Shown piece by piece: positions 10,678 through 57,745 of a stretch of 64,000 nt of DNA. A program made the position numbers and the translations under genes. The stretch lies in NCBI GenBank assembly GCA_003168335.1, contig PMSM01000007.1:62001-126000 (forward strand), given 5' to 3'. Each line of letters begins with the position of its first letter. The first letter of the stretch is position 1. The notes under the pieces are model-generated. The model saw only the letters and a list, made by a program, of their open reading frames with translations. It was not told the DNA's origin and ran no database searches. The stretch is from Blastocatellia bacterium (GTDB taxonomy: Bacteria; Acidobacteriota; Blastocatellia; Pyrinomonadales; Pyrinomonadaceae).

Positions 10678-11181
10678 ATGCCGGACACACCTGACAATTC
10701 GCAGGCGACCGCGCTGCAACTTCGCCGGATTTTGTTGCCGACTGACTTCAGCGGTTGCGCGAACTATGCGCTCCCCTATGCGGCCGCGATTGCCCGCGCG
10801 ACCGGGGCCGCAATCATCTGTGTGCACGTGGTTGAGCCGCTCGCGCCGGCGGTGGGATATTCGGGCTTGCCCGAGCCAATGCCGATCGCGGACATTAGTG
10901 AGCAGTTGGAAGACTCAGCCGAGCGCGAGTTGCCACAACTCGCCCGGTGCGAAGACTTCAGTGGCCTCGATGTCGAAGAGGTTATCGTGCATGGAGATGC
11001 TGCCGCCGAGATTGTGCGCGTGGCCGGCGAACGCGAAGTCGATCTGATTGTAGTGTCGTCGCACGGTCGCACGGGCCTGGGCCGAATTATCTTTGGTTCG
11101 ACCGCAGAGGCGGTTGTGCGCCATGCCAGTTGCCCCGTCCTGGTCGTAAAACCTCCACCACAGGAAGAGGAGTCGGATTAG
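10678..11181 (+). CDS. Universal stress protein (UspA family)
   Basis: 167 residues from ATG 10678; an in-frame ATG at 10648 adds ten residues without family similarity. The single Usp domain begins RRILLPTDFSGCANYALPYA and ends with the nucleotide loop HGRTGLGRIIFGSTAEAVV and CPVLVVKPP. The G-x2-G-x9-G-S/T pattern indicates the ATP-binding subclass. Usp proteins are cytosolic stress-responsive dimers of imprecise function. The stop codon is the first point of a heptamer repeat that runs up to the downstream dedA gene. Confidence 0.9.
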   Translation: MPDTPDNSQATALQLRRILLPTDFSGCANYALPYAAAIARATGAAIICVHVVEPLAPAVGYSGLPEPMPIADISEQLEDSAERELPQLARCEDFSGLDVEEVIVHGDAAAEIVRVAGEREVDLIVVSSHGRTGLGRIIFGSTAEAVVRHASCPVLVVKPPPQEEESD

Positions 11182-11270
11182 TGAGCAGTAAGCAGTGAAC
11201 AGTGGGCCCGCGCCGGCGCTGCGTGCCTTTTACTGCGACTGCTTACTGCTCACCGCTTACTGCTCACTGA
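11181..11270. repeat. Heptamer inverted repeat (GTAAGCA type) between usp and dedA
   Basis: The left arm at 11181-11208 is four 7-bp units (GTGAGCA, GTAAGCA and variants), starting on the last base of the usp stop codon. The right arm at 11232-11270 is the same vocabulary inverted (read on the minus strand: CAGTGAG, CAGTAAG, repeated). The centre, 11209-11231, is GC-rich. The right arm ends one base before the dedA ATG, so the element fills the whole gap. Confidence 0.8.
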
Positions 11271-11271
11271 T

Positions 11272-13121: not shown

Positions 13122-13177
13122 TCAACCGCGAAGCGGTTGTGACCTCCAGCCCAACGTTGCCGAAGGCTACGTTGGGT
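13122..13177 (+). repeat. Left inverted repeat of the REP-transposase unit
   Basis: A 56-bp sequence made of two smaller palindromes, AACCGCGAAGCGGTT and CCCAACGTTG...CTACGTTGGG. It is repeated in inverted orientation at 13802-13861 with only a few differences (a short insertion in the second loop). A further stem-loop, GCAACCCTGTAAGGGTTGC, lies at 13198-13216. Confidence 0.85.
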
Positions 13178-13308
13178 AACGAGGAATGATGATTTGGGCA
13201 ACCCTGTAAGGGTTGCGTCACCACTCAGGAGATGCAACCAGAGTTGCAAACAACCTTCTTGCATCATGATGTAAACTCACCCTTCAAAAAAAAGGAGACT
13301 GCACTCCC

Positions 13309-13761
13309 ATGCCGCAATCGCTCTCCGCTGTTTACATCCACCTCGTCTTTTCGACGAAAGAACGACGCCCATTTCTAAGAGATGGGACACTCCGCGAGTT
13401 GCTGCATTCTCAGATTGGCGGCATCTCGAAAGAGCTTGGCAGCGCACCGATTATCACTGGAGGAGTAGAAGATCATGTGCATCTCCTGGCCCGTTTTGGC
13501 CGCACGATCACACAAGCGGAATGGGTGAAGGAACTGAAGCGGGTATCAAATCTATGGCTGAAGGAGAATTACTCGATCCGCGATTTCGAGTGGCAGGGAG
13601 GTTATGCGGACTTTTCGGTCAGCGCATCGAATCTTGAACGAGTCAAGACGTACATTGCCAACCAGCATGAGCATCATCACAAGATGAATTTTCAAGATGA
13701 GTTGCGAACGTTGCTCCGGCGTCACAAAGTTGAGTGGGACGAACGCTATATCTGGGATTGA
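13309..13761 (+). CDS. REP-associated tyrosine transposase (RAYT, Y1/IS200-like)
   Basis: 150 residues, starting at an ATG preceded by AAAGGAG at 13291-13297. The HUH motif is HVH at residues 56-58 within GGVEDHVHLLARF, and the presumed nucleophile is Tyr115 in VKTYIANQHEHH. The region FEWQGGYADFSVS is conserved in IS200/RAYT proteins. RAYTs nick and join single-stranded REP hairpins and are thought to disperse them. The flanking 56-60-bp inverted repeats, each carrying hairpins, and the smaller stem-loops just outside the gene (13198-13216, 13764-13780) are the expected REP context. The gene is intact. Confidence 0.9.
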   Translation: MPQSLSAVYIHLVFSTKERRPFLRDGTLRELLHSQIGGISKELGSAPIITGGVEDHVHLLARFGRTITQAEWVKELKRVSNLWLKENYSIRDFEWQGGYADFSVSASNLERVKTYIANQHEHHHKMNFQDELRTLLRRHKVEWDERYIWD

Positions 13762-13763
13762 CG

Positions 13764-13861
13764 CAACCGCGTTGCGGTTGATGGACCTTTGTTCGCCAAA
13801 AACCCAACGTAGCCGCTGCGCAGCAACGTTGGGCTGGAGGTCACAACCGCTTCGCGGTTGA
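13764..13861 (-). repeat. Right REP hairpin and inverted repeat of the transposase unit
   Basis: 13764-13780 is a perfect stem-loop, CAACCGC-GTT-GCGGTTG, immediately after the transposase stop. 13802-13861 is the inverted partner of 13122-13177 and again contains the CGCGAAGCGG-type hairpin and the CAACGTTGGG segment. The rest of the 13762-13951 gap shows no gene. Confidence 0.85.
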
Positions 13862-16423: not shown

Positions 16424-16431
16424 AAGAGCTA

Positions 16432-16490
16432 GTCGGCAGACCGCAGGAAGCAGACAGCAGGAACAAAACGACAAGACAGGAAGCAGGAGG
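16432..16490 (+). repeat. Left heptamer arm of the IVP element
   Basis: 16432-16463 consists of 7-bp steps of the type GCAGACC, GCAGGAA, and matches the inverse of 16875-16899. The left arm has exactly one additional unit (ACCGCAG) compared with the right. The arm continues imperfectly to 16490, where its last unit supplies AGGAGG, the ribosome binding site of the enclosed gene. Confidence 0.85.
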
Positions 16491-16494
16491 ATCT

Positions 16495-16869
16495 ATGCCA
16501 ACCCCACAGGGCTTTAGAGATCTCAAGGTCTACCAGTTGGCTTATCGACTGGCAATGGAGGTCTTTCGTGAGTCAAAGTCCTTTCCCCGAGAAGAAAGAT
16601 ATTCGCTGACAGATCAGATTCGTCGAGCGTCAAGAAGTGTCGCTAGTAATATTGCCGAGGGTTATCGCAAGAAACGCTACCCCAAGATGTTCGTGAGCAA
16701 GATGGCTGACGCTGACGGTGAGGCGACGGAGACTCAAGTATGGCTGGATTTCGCCCGCGACTGCGGATACCTCGCCCAACAACGCCAAGGGGAATTAACG
16801 AGCGGCTATGAAGAAGTAGGCCGAATGCTGGGAAGCATGATTCTCAAGCCGGAGAGGTTCAGCGGTTGA
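16495..16869 (+). CDS. Four-helix-bundle protein of the 23S rRNA intervening-sequence (IVP/S23) family
   Basis: 124 residues. The family pattern is present: FRDLKVYQLAYRLAMEVF, then SLTDQIRRASRSVASNIAEG, YRKKRYPKMF and ETQVWLDFARDCGYL. These small basic four-helix bundles form pentamers, and the family includes Avd of diversity-generating retroelements and the protein encoded in 23S rRNA intervening sequences of Leptospira and Coxiella. Their molecular function is not established. Here the gene is not in rRNA; it sits between two heptamer arms that replace the pyrE-recR intergenic region. Its ribosome binding site lies inside the left arm, and the stop codon is followed within five bases by the right arm. 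Confidence 0.9.
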   Translation: MPTPQGFRDLKVYQLAYRLAMEVFRESKSFPREERYSLTDQIRRASRSVASNIAEGYRKKRYPKMFVSKMADADGEATETQVWLDFARDCGYLAQQRQGELTSGYEEVGRMLGSMILKPERFSG

Positions 16870-16912
16870 ACTGCTTCCTGCTGTCTGCCTCCTGCCGACT
16901 GCCTTCTGTTGT
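16870..16912 (-). repeat. Right heptamer arm of the IVP element
   Basis: 16875-16899 is the inverse of the left arm minus one heptamer. Further CTGCC-type units extend to about 16908. The arm ends seven bases before the recR stop codon, so the element separates two convergent genes. Confidence 0.85.
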
Positions 16913-17533: not shown

Positions 17534-17539
17534 TGCGAT

Positions 17540-17660
17540 CTTTGTACTTTGAACTTGGAGCTTGGTGCTTTGTATTCTCCCCCCGAATGGGGTGTCTGTG
17601 CGATTCTGCCGCGCACGGTTCTTAAGAGATCAAAGTTCAAAGTACGAAGTACAAAGAACA
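17540..17660. repeat. Heptamer inverted repeat (ACAAAGT type) between ybaB and recR
   Basis: Read on the minus strand the left arm (17540-17577) is a 7-bp series ACAAAGC, ACCAAGC and so on. The right arm (about 17626-17660) on the plus strand is TCAAAGT, TCAAAGT followed by ACGAAGT-type units. The loop contains a CCCCGAATGGGG hairpin. No gene is carried. Confidence 0.8.
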
Positions 17661-17680
17661 CAGCTCACTCAATCGGGTGG

Positions 17681-27645: not shown

Positions 27646-29462
27646 AATCCATCGTTCGCCATCTGGTTAGTCACATAGAGGGACAGGTGGTTAGTCACAT
27701 AGAGGGACAGGTCGTCGTTATCGATGCATTTGTTTCCGACCTTCGTCGTATCATAAACAACCAACGCAACAGATGGGTTTTCTTTCTTGTGCTGATTGCC
27801 GTAGCAGCACTGTTTCGCATCGCTGTCGTGCACTGGCTCCCAAACGACGCGCCGGATGATGGACGCGTCTATTCGCAGATTGCCCGCAATGTACTTGAGC
27901 AGCATGTTTATTCTCACGAGACTGAAGCACCTTTCGATCCCTCGCTGATCCGGGTTCCCGGATATCCGCTTTTTCTTGCCGGCATCTATTCGGTTTTTGG
28001 ACACACAAATAACGGCGCGGTGCGCATCGCCGAGGCGTTGACTGACACGGGAAGTTGCGCGCTGGTAGCGCTGCTCGCGTGGCTCTGGCAACCGGACGAA
28101 AGGAGAAAGTTTGCGACTGCGATCGCGGCGCTAGCTGTTGCGGCCGTAAATCCATTCACTACGATTTATGCGGCCACGATTCTCAGCGAAGTGCCGACGA
28201 TGTTTCTGGCGCTGTCGACGTTTGTCGCCGCGACTATGGCTTTCCGCGCCGGCGATCTCAGACGCTCTTTGAAGTGGTGGAGCATCGCCGGCTTACTCGC
28301 TGGATTGGGAGCGATGTTTCGGCCTGACAGTGGGCTCTTTGCGGCGGTAATCGGTTTCGTTTTGTTGATAGCCGCAGCTCTTCGCTTCAGACAACGATGG
28401 CGCCGCTCTCTGCTATCGGCCGCCACGCTTTCTGTCGCTTTCATCCTCGTGTTGGCGCCGTGGACGATTCGCAACTGGCGCGTATTCCATGTATTTCAAC
28501 CCCTGGCGCCGACCCACGCGAATATGCCGGACGAGTTTGTTCCGCTGGGTTATGTCCGTTGGCTGAAAACTTGGATCGACGATCAGCAATACATCGACCC
28601 CTTCTGGTGGGAAGTTGATATTCAGCCGATGTCGGCCGATGACCTGCCCGATAGTGCCTTCGATTCCGACGCTGAGCGCGATCGCGTCACCGAGCTGTTC
28701 GACCGATATAATCACCCATCGCCGGACCGCACTGCGAACCCCGAGGCAACGCCTACACCAGCGCAGGCAAGCGCTACGCCGGCAGCTTCGCCGACGCCAA
28801 CACCTGCGAAGGGAAAACCATCGGTTGCGACTGCCACGCCAACCCCCAGCACACAATCACAAAACGACAATTCAAACACCGCCGACACGGAAGACGCCAG
28901 CGACGAAAATGATCAAAACAACGACAGCAGCGATCAAAGCGACGAGAAAGGCGACAGCGAAGCGGATCAGTCTGAACCATCAAACAAAGAAGCCGGCGGA
29001 CCCGTTAAGATGACGCCGGAGATCGATGCTGCGTTTGGTCAAATCGCCAACGAACGCATCGCGCGGAATCCGCTGCGGTACTATTTATTATTGCCCGCCA
29101 AAAGAGCGCACATCCTCTGGTTCAATACTCACTCGGATTTTTATCCGTTTGAGGGCACCCTGCTTCCGTTGAGCGATTTGGATCACACGACGCATCAGCA
29201 GATCTGGCTCCCGCTGTTTGCAGCGTTGGTGGCGATCTACACGTTGCTGGGCCTGGCCGGGATAGCCTTCTTGTGGATGACGCAGGATTTTTACGCGCGC
29301 ATCTGGGCCTCGCTCGTCGTGCTCATCATCGTTACCCGGCTCGCATTCTTTTCAACGATTGTGAGTCCCGAGCCACGCTACGTGGTGGTGCTGTTTCCTT
29401 TTCTGGCAGTGCTGGGCGGCATAGCCATTGCGCGATTACTGAAGCGCTCGGGGGCCGGCTGA
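27642..29462 (+). CDS. GT-C family membrane glycosyltransferase (PMT/ArnT-like)
   Basis: 606 residues from a GTG overlapping the previous stop by four bases, indicating translational coupling. The first periplasmic loop has the acidic pair in NDAPDDGRVYSQIARN typical of polyprenyl-phosphate-sugar-dependent GT-C enzymes, and RVPGYPLFLAGIYSVFG follows. About ten membrane helices are visible. An insert at roughly 365-455 is a low-complexity Thr/Pro then Asp/Asn/Ser stretch, presumably an extracytoplasmic linker. The N-terminus contains a perfect 24-bp tandem duplication (27665-27712, residues LVSHIEGQ, VVSHIEGQ). It likely acts with the polysaccharide synthase upstream. Confidence 0.82.
   Translation: MKSIVRHLVSHIEGQVVSHIEGQVVVIDAFVSDLRRIINNQRNRWVFFLVLIAVAALFRIAVVHWLPNDAPDDGRVYSQIARNVLEQHVYSHETEAPFDPSLIRVPGYPLFLAGIYSVFGHTNNGAVRIAEALTDTGSCALVALLAWLWQPDERRKFATAIAALAVAAVNPFTTIYAATILSEVPTMFLALSTFVAATMAFRAGDLRRSLKWWSIAGLLAGLGAMFRPDSGLFAAVIGFVLLIAAALRFRQRWRRSLLSAATLSVAFILVLAPWTIRNWRVFHVFQPLAPTHANMPDEFVPLGYVRWLKTWIDDQQYIDPFWWEVDIQPMSADDLPDSAFDSDAERDRVTELFDRYNHPSPDRTANPEATPTPAQASATPAASPTPTPAKGKPSVATATPTPSTQSQNDNSNTADTEDASDENDQNNDSSDQSDEKGDSEADQSEPSNKEAGGPVKMTPEIDAAFGQIANERIARNPLRYYLLLPAKRAHILWFNTHSDFYPFEGTLLPLSDLDHTTHQQIWLPLFAALVAIYTLLGLAGIAFLWMTQDFYARIWASLVVLIIVTRLAFFSTIVSPEPRYVVVLFPFLAVLGGIAIARLLKRSGAG
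27665..27712 (+). repeat. Perfect 24-bp tandem duplication
   Basis: GGTTAGTCACATAGAGGG followed by ACAGGT occurs twice head to tail without a mismatch, in frame within the N-terminal codons of the glycosyltransferase. Confidence 0.95.
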
Positions 29463-42040: not shown

Positions 42041-42107
42041 ACGATCCACGAAATCACACGAAACCGCCACGAACAGAATCATTTCCTTCGTGTACTTCGT
42101 GGATCGC
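42041..42107. repeat. CACGAA-family inverted repeat, copy 2
   Basis: ACGATCCACGAAATCACACG at 42041 and inverse arm CTTCGTGTACTTCGTGGATC at 42086-42105. CACGAA steps recur every 10-11 bp. It sits between the rhomboid gene and queF. Confidence 0.85.
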
Positions 42108-42153
42108 TTTACCTGGCAAACAGCAATTTCTAAAACAGGACACGACCGTAAGA

Positions 42154-42588
42154 ATGACTGCTCAAATGCAACCATCAAATCAACAAGGCCTCGACATTCA
42201 ATCGACGCCGCGCGCGGAGATGAATCTCTTTCCGCTCGACACGTTTGCTTACGAGTTTCCCGGCCGCGAGATCAAGATCAAATTCGAGATGCCGGAGTTC
42301 ACCTGCATTTGTCCCTTCTCGGATTTCCCGGACTTTGCCACGATTCGTTTGGAGTACGCGCCGAACGAGCGCTGCGTCGAGCTGAAGAGCCTGAAGCTTT
42401 ACATCAATTCGTGGCGCGACATGAAAGTCTTTCACGAACACGTCGTCAACATGATTCTCGAAGATTTTGTGAAGGCCTGCGATCCGCTCAGCGTCGAGAT
42501 CGAAGGTGATTTCAATGTGCGCGGAAACATCAAGACGAGGGTGAGCGCGAGCTACCGAAAACAGAAGGCTACAAGCAGTAAGCAGTAG
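42154..42588 (+). CDS. queF: NADPH-dependent preQ0 reductase QueF
   Basis: 144 residues, the short single-domain form. It reduces the nitrile of preQ0 to preQ1 in queuosine synthesis. The thioimide-forming Cys is C53 in [12 protein letters not shown] and the general acid D60. [20 protein letters not shown] is the QueF motif. The last four residues (SSKQ) and the stop codon are encoded inside a heptamer array beginning at 42574, so the repeat has been recruited as the gene end. No other que genes are nearby. Confidence 0.93.
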
Positions 42589-42629
42589 GCAGTAAGCAGT
42601 AGGTAGGAAGCAGGAGGCAATCAGCAGTG
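42574..42629 (+). repeat. Heptamer array (AGCAGTA type), eight units, no second arm found
   Basis: Eight 7-bp units in exact register from 42574 to 42629 (AGCAGTA, GGCAGTA, AGCAGGA and variants). The queF stop (42586-42588), an AGGAGG ribosome binding site (42612-42617) and the GTG start of the next gene (42627-42629) all lie inside the array. Confidence 0.9.
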
Positions 42630-42866
42630 TTCACGACCGTCGCAACCGGTTTGGTCGTCTTTGTCGTCGTCGCGCTTTTCCTGTTCATTGCCCGGCGCGT
42701 TTTTCGTTTGGCTCTGAAGCTTGCTCTCGTAGGAGCGCTGGTTCTGCTAATAGTGATCACCGCCGCGTTTGGCTGGTGGCGCGGCTGGTTCGGCTCATCT
42801 TCACCAACCCAGCGACCGCCTTCACAATCTAATCAACGTTCAAATTCAAACCGACGTTCACGCTGA
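42627..42866 (+). CDS. Small membrane protein
   Basis: 79 residues from a GTG whose AGGAGG is supplied by the heptamer array. Two hydrophobic segments are visible, about 5-23 (ATGLVVFVVVALFLFI) and 31-50 (LALVGALVLLIVITAAF), then a short Ser/Arg/Pro tail. No family recognised. The gene is followed by a GCGCAAGCTAACAGCTTGCGC hairpin (42900-42920). Confidence 0.5.
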   Translation: MFTTVATGLVVFVVVALFLFIARRVFRLALKLALVGALVLLIVITAAFGWWRGWFGSSSPTQRPPSQSNQRSNSNRRSR

Positions 42867-43280: not shown

Positions 43281-43674
43281 ATTAGCCGCAAAAAAAGCAC
43301 ATGCACGAAACAGTTTAGTCGGTGCAGGTAGAGCTTATCTGCGGGAGCAGGGCTTCCAGTCATCTCAGCCGTCTTCAGACGGCTTTCCCGCAGGGTTGCT
43401 AGACCAGCGCTTTTATAGCGCTGGGTCCGCCGCATTACGTTGATGCTTTAGCGCGCTTCAGCGTGCTTTGAAGGCAGCCTCCTTAGGTAGACGGCTAACG
43501 CCTCCACCTCAAGCCCGTTGAAACGGGCTGTGAGATAAGCCACGTCCGTACCCCCGGGCGTAAAACGCCCGGTCTAGTAACCCTGCGGGCAAGCCGCGTG
43601 AACGCGGCTTAAGGAACGGCGACCCTGCCTAGCAATTTTCGGTTTGTGCTTTTTGCGCATTTTTGTGGCTAAAT
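43281..43674. repeat. Nested palindrome island
   Basis: Outer inverted repeat: 43281-43311 (ATTAGCCGCAAAAAAAGCAC) and 43640-43674 (inverse). Middle inverted repeat: TTCCCGCAGGGTTGCTAGACC at 43385-43405 and its inverse at 43571-43592. Inside are perfect or near-perfect hairpins: AGCCGTCTTCAGACGGCT, CCAGCGCTTTTATAGCGCTGG, AGCCCGTTGAAACGGGCT, CCGGGCGTAAAACGCCCGG and AAGCCGCGTGAACGCGGCTT. No ORF is credible in this 425-bp gap. Confidence 0.85.
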
Positions 43675-57282: not shown

Positions 57283-57745
57283 GAACAGTAAGCAGAAGGC
57301 AGTAAGCAGTAAGCAGACAGGGCTAAGCCGCAGAGTGCTGCCTACTGCCGCCTGCCTACTGCCTTCTAATTCCCGAGGTTTCACCCTCCTCGAACTAATG
57401 ATCGTTATTTCGATCATCATCATTCTGGCGTCCGTGGCGTTGCCGCAATATCAAAAGACAATCATGCACGCGCGTGAGACGGTTCTGCACGACGACCTTT
57501 TCAGGATGCGGTCGTTACTCGATCAGTACGCGGCAGACAAAGGCAAACTACCGCAATCGCTCGATGATCTCGTCTCTGAGCATTACTTGCGCGAGATTCC
57601 GAAAGACCCGATTACCGACAACAAGGATTGGACGGTAGTGACCGGCGATGATCCCTACTCGACTGAAGGCTCGAGCGGAGTTACCGACGTGCACAGTTCA
57701 TCGGGCGACACTTCGACTGAAGGCACGCCATATAGTGAATGGTGA
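57257..57745 (+). CDS. Second type II pseudopilin, leader partly repeat-derived
   Basis: 162 residues from ATG 57257, overlapping the first pseudopilin by 26 bp. The cleavage site is G41/F42 (SRGFTLLELMIVISIIIILA) with Glu at +5. The mature part has a pilin body and ends with LREIPKDPITDNKDWTVVTG and DDPYSTEG, a GspG-like C-terminus. Residues 10-37 of the leader are encoded by a heptamer inverted repeat at 57284-57367. The frame is kept by the repeat on both sides. Confidence 0.83.
   Translation: MERSTVTGENSKQKAVSSKQTGLSRRVLPTAACLLPSNSRGFTLLELMIVISIIIILASVALPQYQKTIMHARETVLHDDLFRMRSLLDQYAADKGKLPQSLDDLVSEHYLREIPKDPITDNKDWTVVTGDDPYSTEGSSGVTDVHSSSGDTSTEGTPYSEW
57284..57367 (+). repeat. Heptamer inverted repeat inside the second pseudopilin leader
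   Basis: Left arm 57284-57325 in 7-bp steps (AGCAGAA, GGCAGTA) and right arm 57337-57367 inverse (CTACTGCCTTCT end). It begins one base after the stop codon of the first pseudopilin. The unit vocabulary is the same as at 42574 and 11181. Confidence 0.9.

Follow-up and report, generated by a model that had tools for sequence, protein, structure and literature searches.

A heptamer array at the end of queF in a Blastocatellia bacterium is probably the solo terminal array of an IVP cassette

The 3' end of queF in a Blastocatellia bacterium (assembly GCA_003168335.1) consists of heptamer repeat DNA. We read this array as the solo end of an IVP cassette, a small element that appears to be mobile, with a probability of roughly 0.7. 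A full cassette comprises a tandem heptamer array, an IVP gene (PF05635) and the same array inverted. The window analysed is a stretch of 64,000 nucleotides (contig PMSM01000007.1, positions 62,001 to 126,000, forward strand). Judged by its QueF relatives and the QueF tree, the genome is of Pyrinomonadaceae type (Acidobacteriota, Blastocatellia). Because neither an inverted arm nor an IVP gene was found at queF in any of the seven genus members, the assignment of the array to the cassettes, and with it the presumed cassette origin, is drawn from its unit, its position and comparison with relatives. It is interpreted as a solo array and not as a complete cassette because the IVP gene is absent here and present in the queF gap of a related genome.

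IVP genes (also S23 or "four helix bundle") and heptamer arrays are both common; to our knowledge, the former lack an assigned function and the latter a carrier. Flank statistics, the way in which repeat unit and protein covary across phyla, and the position at stop codons now tie the two together.

Organization of the queF-end array

The queF gene (QueF-II, preQ1 synthase) is an open reading frame at 42154..42588 on the plus strand, matching TIGR03139 (NCBIfam, 1.3e-41) and Pfam QueF (5.2e-33). It runs into a direct array of eight GCAGTRR-type heptamers without an inverted partner (42574..42629, plus strand). Read directly, the units are AGCAGTA, AGCAGTA, GGCAGTA, AGCAGTA, GGTAGGA, AGCAGGA, GGCAATC and AGCAGTG, giving 8 x 7 = 56 nt in register. 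TRF independently called 42573-42628 with a period of 7, 8.0 copies and a score of 56, or, as period 14, a score of 73. The array holds the last five codons of queF, AGC AGT AAG CAG TAG (S S K Q stop), with the TAG straddling units 2 and 3. This bears out the sequence-only reading, which had eight in-register units encoding the last four QueF residues and the stop. It had also claimed that a small gene takes both an AGGAGG and its GTG start from the array, and this holds: a Shine-Dalgarno-like AGGAGG lies at 42612..42617 (plus strand) in units 6-7, followed after 9 nt by the GTG at 42627-42629, which closes unit 8.

This GTG opens a gene for a small membrane protein of 79 aa (42627..42866, plus strand). 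No Pfam or NCBIfam family scored above the cut-off for it and our own gene finder missed it, so its reality rests on orthologues. An orthologue follows queF in all seven same-genus genomes, and a homologue search gave a match somewhere in 28 of 60 genomes. Differences at codon positions 1, 2 and 3 numbered 645, 344 and 1003 over 1649 codon comparisons. The hydropathy test revealed two hydrophobic stretches, both within an N-terminal region of the protein that is kept in the alignment. The GTG at 42627 aligns with the ATG of relatives G001 and G002, and the gene start reads TG-TTC-AC in all three. Judged from these alignments, the small gene is real and evolves as coding sequence.

The queF gap in related genomes

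Different species show different states at the one queF site. Direct arrays of the GCAGTRR type occupy the gap in G003, G004, G005 and G006, as in the present genome (G000), and direct arrays of another heptamer, GTCAGRA, occupy it in G001 and G002. In G006, no more than two to three units follow a YRKQ-stop ending. In G003 and G005, near-perfect GCAGTGA runs start from the exact end of queF; such runs, noted in two genus members at L132:2901-3010 and L034, probably reflect active recent slippage and are likely to be a strain marker. The QueF C-termini, whose comparison the sequence-only reading had proposed, end differently among the relatives, contrary to the refutation that it had named, in which relatives would retain the ending without the array. 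The gap of G008 has no repeat, the queF TAG being followed by one base and an ATG.

Outside these direct arrays, GCAGTRR hairpins were found in the queF gap of three loci (L097, L101 and L102), and many other relatives have hairpins of other units. Overall, 24 of 68 queF gaps carried an array or a hairpin; among the other gaps in these loci, 30 of 315 did.

The queF gap of a Pyrinomonadaceae MAG (L095) contains a complete cassette, in which an array over the queF stop is followed by an IVP ORF (PF05635, 5.3e-34), an inverted array and the small gene. The arms are 414 nt apart, and the second array ends just before the next gene. In the QueF tree, the hairpin-bearing L101 is the sister of L095 (support 100/94). 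This complete cassette was the reason for undertaking a general test of IVP flanks.

Period-7 repeats and the GCAGTRR unit elsewhere

Across 410,890 bases (the window and the loci of 68 relatives), 46 period-7 stretches were detected, against 0-8 at the other periods from 4 to 13 and none in shuffled sequence. A 464 kb sample of the genome itself, made up of the window and 20 stretches of 20 kb, gave 17 non-coding period-7 stretches compared with 0-4 at other tested periods; period 14 also gave 17. A genome search with GCAGTARGCAGTARGCAGTARGCAGT, allowing up to 3 mismatches, returned 56 matches, which were grouped by hand into 22 sites, and the reversed-pattern control returned none. The sites occur in both orientations, and seven are two-armed. 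Two two-armed GCAGTRR elements, both without an IVP gene, lie in the window: a cassette-like hairpin at 11177..11271 (GCAGTRR arms 11177-11203 and 11245-11271), which fills a stop-to-start gap, and a GCAGTRR hairpin at 57285..57367, which begins just past the stop of a gene. The RNA fold of the former is -56.5 kcal/mol (z = -6.6), and the five two-armed elements tested fold very stably, with z from -6.3 to -8.5.

Hairpins of like kind were also seen for other heptamer families, TTTGTAC and AATTGCC, at 17534-17662 and L192:1881-2021. At L192, three heptamer families adjoin within a single gap, as though one element had landed beside another. A GATTGCC hairpin at L189:6727-6851 fills a divergent gap, its arms ending 2-4 nt short of either gene start; array-only elements are therefore not confined to gene ends.

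Heptamer arms around IVP genes

The window carries one IVP cassette. Its IVP gene (23S_rRNA_IVP / four-helix-bundle; 16495..16869, plus strand) matches PF05635 (3.9e-34), bAvd PF22296 (9e-11) and PDB 2gsc (1.1e-8). The 5' array, made of GCAGACN/GCAGGAA units, is at 16431..16463 (plus strand), and its inverted 3' counterpart at 16868..16909 (minus strand); the arrays were detected as inverted repeats I6 and I12, with an arm score of 43 for L207. A search of this genome found no IVP gene with GCAGTRR arms, the window cassette being the nearest to it. Such arms do surround IVP genes at L217, L218 and L241, which belong to the same genus, and at L243.

The flank set consisted of 58 usable IVP loci, 56 of them distinct, from this genome and its relatives, after loci with short flanks, loci with identical IVP bodies and L240 (same locus as L207) were dropped. 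L210, for which no ORF was located, was left out. Matching inverted arms were found at 49 of the 56 distinct IVP loci and at 1 of 81 control small genes; seven IVP loci had no arms at the threshold. When IVP flanks were mismatched, 80 of 3080 pairs had inverted arms, and arms in direct orientation were found at 3 of 56 loci. Period 7 was present on both flanks of 33 of the 56 IVP loci and of none of the 81 controls; the flank periodicity is 7 and occasionally 9. The sole scoring control gene is surrounded by a different inverted repeat (13122-13861), whose 39-nt arms are perfectly complementary and lie 662 nt apart.

These data bear on a serious rival to the cassette reading, which is that the array is a local microsatellite: an old queF end, AAGCAGTGA (Lys-Gln-stop), would have slipped into a direct array, and the likeness to cassettes would be convergence. 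Every array in the genus is indeed direct only, and G006 carries two to three units after YRKQ-stop; the near-perfect runs starting exactly at the gene end in G003 and G005 suggest that slippage is acting on the arrays now. Against this reading, the unit recurs at 22 sites in both orientations, seven of them two-armed, and flanks IVP genes within the genus and beyond it. The other heptamer at the same spot in G001 and G002 and the occupation of the queF gap (24/68) relative to other gaps (30/315) also speak against it. We consider slippage from the Lys-Gln-stop end an unlikely origin of the array.

Placement of cassettes between genes

The gene upstream of the cassette lies on the IVP strand in 45 of 47 cases, compared with 47% under a null of random intergenic insertion. 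In 43 of 47 cassettes, no more than 20 nt separate the array from the upstream stop (null 11% when counted per base, 27% when counted per gap), and in 18 of the 47 the array overlaps the end of the upstream gene. On the other side, 37 of 43 downstream genes start no more than 20 nt away. The median distance of the array was 1.5 nt from the upstream stop and 5 nt from the downstream gene, calculated on undeduplicated rows. Gene ends were taken from a simple gene finder of our own, and placement counts were made after one duplicate locus had been removed by hand: L209 is the same element as L208, reducing 50 rows to 49. The strand bias could alternatively arise from selection for co-transcription. 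The queF array matches this placement, as it covers the stop of a same-strand upstream gene and the next start.

Plasmid cassettes and covariation of heptamer and protein

Twenty-seven plasmid records with an IVP relative were found, and inverted arms scoring at least 29 were present at 13 of the 14 loci fetched. The armed loci belong to Cyanobacteria (including Nostocales), Azospirillum and Gemmatirosa. Some of these cassettes sit within operons, including CRISPR-cas operons of cyanobacterial plasmids: L268 lies between the Cmr2 and Cmr3 genes, and L273 and L276 lie between cas6 and cas4.

Among 63 elements, a heptamer was common to 35 of 51 pairs at an IVP identity of at least 60%, to 31 of 109 pairs at 50-60% and to 64 of 1793 pairs under 50%; these pairs are not independent, and family members share a host lineage. 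In a Mantel test, rho was 0.175, none of 999 permutations was as high, and the antisense control stayed near zero throughout. For cross-phylum pairs (plasmid loci against Acidobacteriota), 9 of 11, 11 of 28 and 29 of 611 shared a heptamer in the same identity classes, the 11 pairs, to which only a handful of elements contribute, representing few independent events. The IVP protein and its arms travel together, and the protein may read the arms.

Taken together with the queF data, a probable course of events can be outlined. The first array of a complete cassette lies on the stop of the upstream gene or a few nt past it, co-oriented with that gene, and only a few nt separate the second array from the gene that follows. 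A cassette that lost its IVP gene would be reduced to a hairpin, and the loss of one arm would reduce this to a direct array. In the case of queF, the array would have replaced the old gene end, with the result that the QueF tail and stop are now written in repeat sequence, whose purine-rich strand would by chance offer AGGAGG to the next gene. Such insertions would rewrite gene ends, creating new C-terminal tails, stops and ribosome-binding sites. The cassettes are presumably mobile, with the IVP protein acting on the arrays; neither excision nor insertion was observed. That such arrays form the ends of IVP cassettes, a point missed by the sequence-only reading, explains their position over stop and start codons without any translational function.

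Translation signals within the array

Pairing with the anti-Shine-Dalgarno sequence, which we take to be the usual one (a search for the 16S 3' end of this genome gave no hits), amounts to -11.6 kcal/mol before the small gene. The same pairing is weaker in all six genus relatives: -4.8 in G006, -1.3 in G004, -7.9 in G005, +1.0 in G003, -0.7 in G002 and -3.3 kcal/mol in G001. An alternative GTG within the array of G003 gives -7.9 kcal/mol. As the AGGAGG before the small gene is present in G000 only and absent from all six relatives, a conserved Shine-Dalgarno role was rejected.

Among ATG genes of the own-genome sample, median pairing was -3.9 and only 24% reached -8, and a strong Shine-Dalgarno site is therefore usable but not the rule in this genome. 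IVP genes had a median of -7.85, with 21 of 42 at -8 or below when starts were picked by rule. Inspection by eye of 42 IVP and 12 plasmid starts placed the site in or against the array in a minority; mostly it lay between array and start. The earlier remark that a similar unit provides such a site in the IVP element is correct for the window cassette, where AGGAGG (16485-16490) precedes the IVP ATG by 4 nt.

The sequence-only reading regarded the repeat as part of the translational wiring of two genes. Its physical side stands, in that the stop, the Shine-Dalgarno-like AGGAGG and the start codon all lie in the array; a conserved translational role does not, the site being restricted to G000. 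The AGGAGG may be used in translation, and the site is best read as a local by-product of the repeat.

It is improbable that the array is a regulatory repeat, bound in the mRNA by an S1, Csp or CsrA-like protein that controls translation of the small gene, a role of the kind that MacGregor proposed for TAACTGA repeats. The position just 5' of a start codon and over the upstream stop is the layout reported for TAACTGA repeats in the available text of PMC4679880, but the unit varies even within the genus, similar elements occur in a divergent gap and flank IVP genes, and the Shine-Dalgarno site is not conserved. The least probable alternative is that the array terminates transcription or, as a 3' hairpin, stabilises the mRNA: the two-armed versions are very stable, but the queF array folds near chance (z = -1.5), forms no stem with an inverted arm, has no T run and is followed by the next gene in the same operon-like order, and the lack of an inverted arm and the near-chance fold led us to reject an intrinsic terminator.

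Relation to known elements

The STRR heptamer repeats of heterocystous cyanobacteria are degenerate tandem heptamers between genes. The present arrays resemble them in this respect, and Nostocales plasmids do carry IVP cassettes with heptamer arms. MITEs and REP-BIME palindromes are non-autonomous inverted-repeat elements between genes, as the IVP cassettes are inverted-repeat elements between genes; unlike them, the cassettes have arms of tandem heptamers, varying in unit and length, and no transposase. No target duplication was noticed in the few cassette junctions read by eye.

TAACTGA arrays of Beggiatoaceae, Cyanobacteria and Bacteroidetes lie at start codons, and 14 of ~169 overlap the end of the upstream ORF (MacGregor 2015, PMC4679880, available text). 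The present arrays share both the location at start codons and, in some cases, the overlap with the upstream gene end. According to the same text, horizontal spread of the TAACTGA repeats is suspected, no carrier is known, and a repeat-binding protein is suggested as their possible mobile part. They are one fixed heptamer, nearly always direct and with no IVP link reported in that text, whereas the present arrays have many units, are often inverted and are tied to an IVP protein. By its AGCAGTA-like unit, the queF array is not a TAACTGA repeat.

IVS elements in 23S rRNA with S23p, for example in Coxiella, are described in the available part of PMC4990558. They share with the cassettes the protein family, an ORF inside a stem-loop of complementary ends, and a patchy, apparently horizontal distribution. 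The cassettes differ in lying between protein genes, with tandem heptamer ends at same-strand stop codons and with array-only relics being common; the queF array, which sits between queF and a protein gene, is not a 23S rRNA IVS, which is an rRNA insertion that RNase III cuts out. In the parts available, PMC11270868 reports that rRNA insertions of CPR bacteria contain 23S_rRNA_IVP ORFs, PMC10053308 gives PF05635 as homologous to Avd of diversity-generating retroelements, and PMC10910872 and PMC8700078 name the IVP family only. The window IVP likewise matches Pfam bAvd. No link of IVP genes to heptamer arrays was found in a literature search over titles and abstract openings, with most subscription papers and all preprints outside its coverage.

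The IVP protein is a testable candidate for the repeat-binding protein sought by MacGregor. We consider it possible, at somewhat less than even odds, that many orphan heptamer arrays, among them the queF array and perhaps also STRRs and TAACTGA repeats, derive from a single class of tiny mobile element as its ends or relics. The one four-helix-bundle IVP protein of this element would recognise its own heptamer, and the element would insert at co-oriented stop codons. If so, the ends of host genes, along with ribosome-binding sites and start codons, would have been turned into repeat DNA.

Other repeats in the window

Two different repeat families flank queF: the heptamer array on the 3' side and, ~50 nt upstream of the gene start, an inverted CACGAA-type repeat at 42046-42109 (CCACGAAATCACACGAAACCGCCACGAAC ... 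TTCGTGTACTTCGTGGATC). A long imperfect inverted repeat of another type, with 49 nt arms at 80%, lies 3' of a cupin gene at 43367-43609. At 27664-27712, a stretch of 24 nt is perfectly duplicated in tandem (TGGTTAGTCACATAGAGGGACAGG).
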